A stretch of DNA of 64,000 nt. It comes from Arctopsyche grandis (taxonomy: Eukaryota > Arthropoda > Insecta > Trichoptera > Hydropsychidae). The first letter of the stretch is position 1. Each line of letters begins with the position of its first letter. The stretch is from positions 11,078,001 through 11,142,000 of the forward strand of contig NC_135365.1 of NCBI RefSeq assembly GCF_051622035.1, in the 5' to 3' direction. A program made the position numbers and the translations under genes. The notes under the pieces were generated by a model. It had not been told where the DNA came from. It saw only the letters and a list, made by a program, of their open reading frames with translations, and made no database searches. Of this stretch, positions 1-46,725 are shown in pieces.

Positions 1-1146
1 CGCTGAAATTTTGCTTAATTTAATCTGTTTCCTGAAACCACCTAATTTCTTACCTGTTGAGGTTAGAACCGAACTAATTACAGTGTTCAATTCCTCGATG
101 TCTGCTTCTGGGTTTAATTTCCCGTATCGATTTCCAAGTTCGAGTTCGAATTCCTTTTTCCTAGACCTTAGTTGAGCGAAATCTGGAGAGTTACTGCATC
201 CTTTTATTAATTTCCTACGTTCGCAATTTATATTAATGGCCATCTTGGCACGGACTAATCTGTGATCGCTGCCTATATCTACTTTACTTAAAACACTAAC
301 GTCTTTAACGGAGTGCAGGGCATTTGTTAGGATGAAATCGATCTCGTTTCTGTCTCCTTTAGGACTCTCCCAAGTCCACTTATTGTTGGTGTTTTTCCTG
401 AAAAATGAATTAGTGATGAAGAGCCTGTTGTGTTCTGCGAATTCTATGAGGCGATCGCCTCTGTCGTTTCTTTGGCCGGTACCAAAATTGCCTACTGCTC
501 TTTCTGTGTTTGCCTTTTGTCCTATTTTTGCGTTAAAGTCGCCCATGATTATTTTAAAGTGGTGGCGGCTATTATCGTATGCGCCCTGTAGTTTTTCGTA
601 GAAGTCTTCTATTTCCTCGTCTGGGTGGCTAGATGTGGGGGCGTACACTTGGAAGATTTGACAAGTGTACCTGCTCGAGATTCTTAATACTACATAGCAT
701 ATACGTTCCGATATGTCGTTTATTTCTATAATATTTCTTTCTATTCTCTTATTGATAAGAAACCCTACTCCTCCTATTCTACCATTTGGTAGCCCTCTCC
801 AGTAGAGACAGTTACCACTTTTTAGGATTATTTGGTTTTCCTGTTTTCGTCTTACTTCGCTAAGTCCTACTAAATCCCATTTGATACTTTCTAGTTCATT
901 CTCTAATGCAAGCACACTTCCTTCACTCGATAACGTTCTTACATTGTACGTGGCTAAATACAGGTTTCTATTAGCTAAGCTATCATCCATCGTCACTCTT
1001 ACCTTGTTGGAGGTTTGGATATTATTTTTCTCGCATTTATCCAAGATGTGTTGAGAAAAAGGCGGTACTTGAGAGAGATTTCCATTCAAGGAGTGAGTTC
1101 TTACCGCCATAAACTCTTCTCTGTGGTCAGCTTTGACATATAGTCA
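1..1146 (-). mobile_element. RTE-type non-LTR retrotransposon, 5' part with endonuclease
   Basis: On the minus strand a frame is open from a stop near 1147 to the window edge; the first ATG is at 1108-1110, giving about 370 codons with no stop. It encodes an apurinic-like endonuclease (EEP fold), which nicks target DNA for target-primed reverse transcription. Visible motifs in order: ATYNVRTL, the strand with catalytic Glu (GLSEVRR), QVYAPTS, the catalytic MGDFNAKIG block, and the C-terminal IGSDHRLVRAK with the catalytic Asp-His pair. This layout is that of RTE/BovB-like elements, often annotated as craniofacial development protein 2-like. The reverse transcriptase would lie to the left, outside the window. 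The uninterrupted frame suggests a fairly young copy; the 5' end may be truncated. Confidence 0.88.
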
Positions 1147-4074: not shown

Positions 4075-4679
4075 ATTCCACAATAGAGCCTTTCCGCTAC
4101 TAAATAAAGTAAACAATCTCAAATACAACCATCACAACATTCCCCGAGTGCCGCCTTTTCCTCTCTGCCTCGTTTCCTACTGTTCTTCTATTCGGTTTCG
4201 ATTCATTTGTTTCGTCTTTAAATTATTTCACTTTTATTTCAATTTCTTTATTAAAAGACAAAGGAATTAAGTTTTATTATTTGTCATTTATTTCCGATAT
4301 GAAAAAATCAAAATGGATGCTGATTTCTTTTTAATATTTTTATATGCAAAATAATAAATAAATCAAAAATGCGTCAACATTTTACTAATATTTTTTTTTG
4401 TTTCAAAAATTACGAAAAATGATTTTATAAAGTATACATATACATATGATATAATAGAAATGATTTACTACCGAACCTAAAGGAATAAAAAATCATACCT
4501 TAGAAACGTTTCATATTCAATTTTTATTGACAATCATAAATATTACTGACATAAAGGAAAATATAAATTGTTTATTATTTTACATCTGGTTTACGTGTCT
4601 AAAATAGGTTTAAATCTGATCTATGCTTATTGTAACTAATCAGGATTCCGTTTCTTATTTTATATTTTCTTTATTTCAG
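4075..4679 (+). other. Non-coding AT-rich stretch before Btk29A exon 1
   Basis: AT-rich, with no coding frame. It ends in a pyrimidine tract and TTATTTCAG at 4671-4679, a good splice acceptor, so it is probably intron between a 5' UTR exon and the first PH-encoding exon. Confidence 0.5.
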
Positions 4680-4697
4680 AGTTTGATTTTGCAAAAT

Positions 4698-43195
<38,498 letters not shown>

Positions 43196-43198
<3 letters not shown>

Positions 43199-43873
43199 CT
43201 ACCAGCTACGCGTAACTCAGCTTCCTCCCACGATAACACCCCCGTTAGAGAAACAACATCCAAATACAGAGAAGAAATACATTCGCACGACATTCCAAGC
43301 GTGAATTCCAAACAACCTTTGCTCAAGCATAAAGAAGAAAGTCATTCGCAAGATACTTTAGTATCGCACTCGAAGCAAACAATGCAAAAATTGAAAGAAG
43401 AGAGTTACTCTCACGACACCCTGTTGCCGAATTCGAAACATCAACCGCCGAAGCACAAGGAAGACACCCACTTGCTCAACATGATTCAGACGAATTCAAA
43501 GGAATTGAAATACAAAGACGATTGCCAAACGCTCGACACGCTCTCCAGAAGCCATAGGGAGACGTTGCTCCGTCTGCTGAAGCAGTATTCTAACGAATCT
43601 GTGTTGCTCAGAGAACTAGTCACACATTGCCTTTCGGAGAAAAGCAATGGCAGTAAGGTGAATCAATCTGGTCAGTCGCCGGCTAGCAGTAAGATTATCG
43701 ACAGTCCCAGCATTCCGCAATCGCAGTCGCCGCCGCGCACCACTCTGCCCAGGACCAAGAAAAATTCCAACGTGGCGAAGGATTCGTGCGATGTTTGTAT
43801 ATCGTCGTCCCGTCAGCCGCCGTGGCTTATCGATATATGTAAACTAATAGCAGAAAATGCCAAAAAGAAATGA
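43196..43873 (+). CDS. In-frame C-terminal extension of Btk29A (stop-codon readthrough candidate)
   Basis: After TGA-CTA the kinase frame stays open for 224 codons to TGA 43871-43873. The region is visibly richer in GC than the following 3' flank and changes composition exactly at the second stop. It encodes four 21-residue-type repeats (from 43307, 43370, 43433 and 43496, plus a short unit from 43259) with consensus SKxxxxKxKEExHSxDTLxxN, then a helix-like ETLLRLLKQYSNESVLLREL, a Ser/Pro/Gln linker and a Cys/Trp end (CDVCISSSRQPPWLIDICK). Repeats agree in residues while codons differ at silent positions. There is no in-frame ATG near the start (GTG at 43301), and the nearest possible acceptor, CCAG at 43205, gives the wrong phase from exon 13. 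Readthrough is the simplest route; an unseen splice form is the alternative. Confidence 0.75.
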
Positions 43874-44262
43874 TACCTATCATAAGTCATTTAAATGTTT
43901 TAAAATAGTTTGATTTCTTATGTAATGCCGTGCAGTGCGAGTGTTACACCACTCGTCTAACACTCTCCATTGCGTACGTATTGATTAATAAGATAGCTGT
44001 GTGTGTAATATATTTATGTGATTCATTGGTATTTTCATTCCTAATTAATTTTACTTTTCATTTGTTCTTAGGTTTAAATTTGGCGTTTTTCGATTGTTTT
44101 TTTTTTTTTACACCTATACATATATGATTCCAAAATAATAGTATTATCTACTTTGATTCTTGTAAAGATATGTATGATAATTAGACATTGTCCCTAGCAA
44201 TTTTAGTGAAATCTCTTTTCAATACATTTTTATTCTTTTTAGTTTTTATTCCTTTTATATTA
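43874..44262 (+). other. Btk29A 3' UTR, proximal
   Basis: AT-rich, no frame. No AATAAA is seen before the inserted element at 44263; the nearest signals are past it at 44779 and 44796, with another near 45559. Confidence 0.5.
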
Positions 44263-44764
44263 GGTTGTGGCTATTTGCAGGTACTATATCTGCGACAGGC
44301 GCAAAGCCTTCTGCGCATGCGCGTGAACTTATAATCCGATTATAATTTCTTACATTTAATGTATGCTAGACTTGTTAAATCAATCGTTTTCATTATACAT
44401 GAGGCAAATAAACTTTGCACGTTATTATAATAGATTTATATCATTTAGCTAGTTCGCGGCTTGTAAGACTTGTATGTAGTTATTATACGTTGTATATGAT
44501 AATAATTTTCTAACAATTAATAATATCAACTAATTTGGATTATATTTTTTAGTCTACGTAACTTTACGAGTTCGAACTAAATTCTAAGAGGCTTAAAACA
44601 AAATTTTAACCGTAAACACGCTGACAGTGACAGTTCACGCGCATGCGCAGAAGGCTTTGCGCCTGTCGCAGATATAGTACCTGCAAATAGCCAATAATTC
44701 GCAGATATAGTACCTACAAATAGCCAATAATTTGCAGATATAGTACCTGCAAATAGCCACAACC
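44263..44764. mobile_element. TIR element, family A copy 2
   Basis: 502 bp, starts GGTTGTGGCTATTTGCAGG, ends ...AAATAGCCACAACC, perfect 9-bp duplication TTTATATTA (44254-44262 and 44765-44773). The right end has three copies of the 33-bp subunit and the left end one. It lies in the probable 3' UTR of Btk29A and contains its own AATAAA (about 44406). Confidence 0.9.
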
Positions 44765-44773
44765 TTTATATTA

Positions 44774-46725
<1,952 letters not shown>

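Follow-up and report, generated by a model that had tools for sequence, protein, structure and literature searches.

The kinase gene and its surroundings

The window, a 64,000-nucleotide stretch of Arctopsyche grandis contig NC_135365.1, carries the exons of a Tec/Btk kinase, which we take to be Btk29A, following the name used in the first-pass annotation and what is known of insect genomes. Its terminal coding exon (43097–43198, + strand) closes in TGA, and a gene model of ten joined exons, starting at 39714, encodes 452 residues up to that stop, followed by 224 residues beyond it. The features concerned, all on the + strand, are as follows:

4620–4865: stop-to-stop ORF with the first part of a PH domain (Pfam PH at 1.3e-5, scoring 26.1 bits where the cut-off is 25.1)
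39714–43198: SH3-SH2-kinase coding region, ten exons, 452 residues to the stop (joined translation open to TGA)
39714–39803, 39888–39952, 40051–40116, 40928–41056 and 41136–41329: exons 1–5 of the gene model
41406–41577, 41709–41877, 41966–42203, 42273–42406 and 43097–43198: exons 6–10 of the gene model
43196–43198: kinase stop TGA followed by CTA, the proposed leaky stop (W and then LPA at the same position in two relatives, P0002 and P0005)
43199–43870: candidate readthrough region, an open tail of 224 codons (672 nt) with five homologs (E 6e-47 to 3e-128)
43871–43873: second stop TGA, where the extended product is predicted to end (KKK is also the C-terminus of three relatives, and W stands there in two)

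The modelled kinase exons match Pfam SH3, SH2 and PK_Tyr, and their top solved-structure match is BTK (4xi2, E 8e-161), which stops at residue 445 of 452, near the kinase TGA. Tec is the top solved match of the 4620–4865 ORF and BTK entries are found among those that follow; this ORF would be an exon of the long Btk29A form, belonging to one gene with the SH3-SH2-kinase exons. The predicted PH, SH3, SH2 and tyrosine kinase domains are those that characterize the Tec family.

A 307-nt unit forms a tandem array of 5.8 copies with 94% matches upstream of the kinase exons (26230–28010), and the last kinase intron holds a 609-nt stretch (42428–43036) bounded by perfect 13-nt inverted repeats and containing a hairpin with 32-nt arms (42699–42775); the stretch and its hairpin are perhaps mobile elements. 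At the edge of the window (1–1143, minus strand) an open-ended ORF of 381 residues matches the Pfam endonuclease/exonuclease/phosphatase and endonuclease-reverse transcriptase families and is perhaps a piece of a retrotransposon. Downstream of the kinase gene, ORFs on opposite strands (44181–44345 and 44577–44765) share one 15-residue peptide, perhaps as parts of an inverted repeat element.

The kinase stop and the open frame beyond it

The first-pass annotation had proposed that the kinase stop is leaky, and the arrangement that it described is present in the sequence: the TGA at 43196–43198 is followed directly by CTA (TGA CTA C, with CCA as the next codon) and no in-frame stop occurs over the 224 codons up to the TGA at 43871–43873. 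The TGA-C context is that of conserved readthrough genes, and of the 1119 TGA triplets that the + strand of the whole window contains, 14 have CTA next. An open frame of this length is not reproduced by shuffling, as dinucleotide shuffling of the tail gave no open frame in 20,000 trials, with an average of 9.3 stops per shuffle in 500 further ones, and none in 5,000 shuffles of the 672 nt located 3' of the second stop. Each of the other five frames of the tail, antisense included, contains 6–10 stops. The AATAAA motif is absent between the two stops and first appears downstream at 44407.

The proposed switch in composition at the second stop was also borne out, the GC content being 46.4% in the tail vs 29.6% in the 500 nt beyond it. 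Period-3 power amounts to 4.56 for the tail and 4.47 for the kinase coding sequence, vs 0.53 for the next 672 nt; the value of the tail was reached by 1.05% of 2000 random 672-nt windows, among which windows overlapping the tail itself were counted.

A TGA with coding sequence downstream would also be expected of a selenocysteine codon, for which a SECIS element should be found. A search of the region 42900–46500 against Rfam yielded four matches at E ≤ 10, all under their gathering scores and none of them a SECIS, and we consider selenocysteine insertion at this TGA to be the next thing to negligible. In ten stretches of at most 150 nt each, folded around the stop, no significant RNA structure was found (lowest z −1.57); in the seven of these that begin at 43199 or 43205, z ranged from −1.57 to −0.13.

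Relatives of the tail and the pattern of conservation

A search with the tail against ∼ 5.8 billion proteins produced 196 candidates, of which five matched at E ≤ 1, all of them strongly (E 3e-128 to 6e-47; 93, 77, 75, 65 and 55% identity). The homologs come from assemblies labelled lgn, one being found on four contigs and each of the rest on a single contig, and represent five sequences, not necessarily five species. A profile search with the six tails, taken up to E 10, recovered the same five only among 2,409 candidates. The database contains predicted ORFs only and relatives with a broken frame could be missing from it for that reason. A search for proteins with the combined length of kinase and tail gave 704 candidates, none of which matched the tail at E ≤ 1, and scans for the tail in genome_contigs and viral_contigs gave 191 and 29 pattern matches, respectively, none of which was confirmed.

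Two of the five relatives reach the kinase. In P0002 and P0005 the ORF begins in the kinase exon and proceeds through MRKCW...QGLLAD/TD-W-LPA into the tail with unchanged spacing, W taking the position of the kinase stop and LPA following it, and the frame runs on across the stop position in three sequences. A second W follows the final KKK in both, at the place of the window's second TGA. There the window reads TGA TAC CTA TCA, which under translation table 4 is WYLS, exactly the end of P0002; at least P0002 was therefore translated with TGA as W. Most simply, the W at the kinase stop of P0002 and P0005 also stands for TGA, although TGG is conceivable in principle. The other three ORFs (P0003, P0004 and P0006) start at a Met inside the tail and stop exactly at KKK, which would fit an in-frame stop upstream and a shared second stop. 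Frame breaks in close relatives had been named at the outset as an outcome that would count against readthrough; the tail is open in all five, with W-LPA at the stop in both that reach the kinase, and its conservation as an open frame, seen at the protein level in predicted ORFs, supports the readthrough interpretation. The second ORF lies in frame 0 relative to the kinase, is open and appears to be under protein-level constraint across the five homologs.

Conservation is unevenly distributed along the tail. The following stretches, all on the + strand, stand out:

43262–43513: four 21-codon repeats of the type K.KEES.S.DTL...SK, compared in six pairs
43517–43636: tail residues 107–146, the most conserved block (38/40, 38/40, 37/39, 37/40 and 28/40 identical in the five relatives)
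43727–43762: SPPRTTLPRTKK, tail residues 177–188, 12 residues in a row that are invariant in all six sequences
43781–43870: C-terminal block DSCDVCISSSRQPPWLIDICKLIAENAKKK, tail residues 195–224 (identities in the five relatives: 29, 27, 26, 25 and 22 out of 30)

Residues 107–146 are 92.5–95% identical to the window in four relatives and 70% identical in the fifth. The first 18 residues of the tail are identical to the window at 18/18 positions in P0002 and 10/18 in P0005. In the distant relatives conservation drops in segments 19–43, 65–106 and 147–170. P0006 is a poor match where its sequence begins, with 3/9 identities over residues 1–18 and 2/21 in segment 19–43, and has 21/42 and 6/24 identities in the other two segments. 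Over the 32 residues at the end of the kinase, 31 are identical in P0002 and 27 in P0005, and in P0005 the best block of the tail (37/40) equals or exceeds the kinase end in conservation. Differences between the repeats are mainly synonymous (pS 0.65–1.17 vs pN 0.19–0.36 over 18 codons in six pairs), which is supporting rather than decisive evidence, because the copies were recognized at the protein level and the comparison is biased towards synonymous differences. Copies 2 and 3 differ at 6 first, 1 second and 13 third codon positions.

These data bear on two further explanations of the tail. It might be a separate small protein translated from an internal ATG, given the in-frame Met codons at tail residues 62 and 95 and the database ORFs of three relatives that open at an internal Met. 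However, no Met column is common to all six sequences and conservation begins right after the kinase stop, upstream of the first Met of the tail in the window, which makes an internal start highly improbable; neither a downstream ATG nor an antisense gene explains the tail. Alternatively, a once longer kinase could recently have been truncated by a nonsense mutation, with the tail as its fading relic, a scenario favoured by the fact that the relatives are known from protein and not from DNA. Against it stand the end of the solved BTK match so close to the stop, the W at both stop positions of P0002 and P0005, which points to TGA in the relatives, and the fully open state of the tail, and we regard a recent mutation as a most unlikely origin of the stop.

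By sequence, no convincing domain was found in the tail in comparisons with Pfam, NCBIfam and PDB. The best match, to Cas_Csm6_HEPN (0.032), was at chance level and appeared in one of the six members. The AlphaFold2 model of the tail has a mean pLDDT of 47 and contains helices only, located between residues 93 and 147 and at residues 208–221, all at low confidence, with pLDDT of 44–62 in the block 107–146. On this model the tail is probably mostly disordered, and its conserved stretches would probably bind partners or set the location of the protein.

Proposed readthrough at UGA-CUA and known parallels

Taken together with the context of the stop, these observations make it very probable that the TGA of Btk29A, with its UGA-CUA context, acts as a conserved leaky stop and yields a kinase with a tail of 224 residues. 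We infer that the bypass takes place in translation rather than through a splice or an edit, and the same applies to its rate and to the function of the tail. In this mechanism the majority of ribosomes would terminate at the TGA at 43196–43198 and release the ordinary kinase. In a fraction of them a near-cognate tRNA would place an amino acid at UGA, and these ribosomes would continue to the second TGA, producing the kinase with a tail composed of four degenerate repeats followed by the conserved stretches. The first-pass annotation put this product at about 894 residues in a long form and 734 in a short one, totals that would include N-terminal exons beyond the ten modelled here. Since no significant structure was found after the stop, the local context is the likely cause of readthrough.

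The first-pass annotation had called this the strongest known leaky context in animals. As far as the consensus is concerned this holds, as UGA CUA was the high-readthrough consensus in a human study (PMC4359377, extract); it is less apt for the rates, as the top published ones occur with G as the next base, where Btk29A has C. Readthrough at three human UGA CUA sites was measured at 0.61, 0.99 and 2.29% in HeLa cells, with the top rates where G comes next (PMC4359377, extract). A fungal study found CUA following UGA to be sufficient (PMC4207609, extract), and UGA CUA G sites were reported to differ more than 15-fold, so that the motif alone does not set the rate (PMC12233894, extract).

The readthrough interpretation has to be weighed against a minority transcript spliced around the TGA, in which the tail would be translated without any bypass. 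The variants proposed are a short intron at 43182–43250 or a splice from the donor at 42406 to an acceptor at 43328, 43376 or 43403. Seven GT dinucleotides precede the TGA in its exon and 19 AG dinucleotides follow it as far as 43420, which together allow 43 in-frame donor–acceptor combinations with an intron of at least 50 nt. Of the possible donors, the most plausible is that at 43181 (GTTTGC), which is similar to two of the nine in the model (GTTTGT after 39952 and 42406). Six of the 19 acceptors have 9/15 pyrimidines, as do the two weakest acceptors among the ten in the model, whereas the other 13 fall below the model range of 9–13/15. Moreover, splices that remove the TGA drop all or part of the first tail residues, which are in the kinase frame and conserved (18/18 in P0002 and 10/18 in P0005), and a splice from 42406 into the tail would remove the last segment of the kinase (VMRKCW...RPSF). 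Such a transcript seems unlikely to us.

A-to-I editing would turn UGA into UGI, read as UGG, in some transcripts; the stop would become a Trp codon, and a conserved stop followed by coding sequence would look identical at the DNA level. However, no significant structure was seen in the stretches of at most 150 nt folded around the stop, a span that covers nearby pairing partners, and editing needs no CUA after it, although CUA is found after some TGA triplets of the window in any case. We hold editing to be very improbable.

If the stop is leaky as proposed, a long conserved readthrough tail is attached to a signalling kinase where ordinary annotation would stop at the first TGA, Btk29A would join a readthrough class counted in hundreds of insect genes, and the annotation of some insect proteins may end too early. 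The presence of a conserved block without a recognized domain makes this a clear case for probing the function of a readthrough tail. More tentatively, a Tec kinase might be switched by translation termination throughout an insect clade, where the isoform with the conserved tail would alter the site or the substrates of the kinase and leakiness would tune its output; this is a possibility that we would entertain without favouring it. If true, kinase output would be set by the leakiness of a stop codon, possibly by tissue.

Conserved readthrough was reported for 353 regions in mosquito and 333 in fly (PMC5100048, extract), and bumblebees have 851 candidate readthrough stops, of which at least 306 were estimated to be functional (PMC7826183, extract). 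A single-genome test placed honeybee and Tribolium below the abundance threshold; according to its authors the test may underestimate (PMC5100048, extract). Btk29A is not mentioned in the main texts of PMC5100048 and PMC3840789, and none of the papers searched names both Btk29A and readthrough; two naming Btk29A and a stop codon looked unrelated, judged by their titles and the first lines of their abstracts. The bumblebee candidates (PMC7826183, table S21) may already include Btk29A.

Like the conserved readthrough genes of Drosophila, Anopheles and bumblebee, Btk29A has a TGA-C stop and in-frame protein conservation directly after it. SECIS elements, a downstream ATG and antisense coding were checked here as in the insect screen (PMC5100048, extract); unlike in the insect readthrough screens, conservation is known for Btk29A from the proteins of relatives and not from PhyloCSF on DNA. 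According to the extracted literature, Btk29A shares CUA after UGA with LDHB, AQP4 and fungal tpi1, but LDHB and AQP4 have G after CUA where Btk29A has C, and the LDHB extension comprises 18 nucleotides, compared with 672 nt without a recognized domain in Btk29A. Drosophila headcase, kelch, Synapsin and vvl/dfr likewise carry C-terminal readthrough extensions in an insect, those of headcase and dfr being functional (PMC8417969, extract). According to the same extract, headcase uses a stem-loop and dfr is predicted to have one, in contrast to the Btk29A stop with no significant one, and the dfr stop is UAG-C whereas that of Btk29A is UGA-C. Btk29A also differs from this set of four in being a tyrosine kinase.
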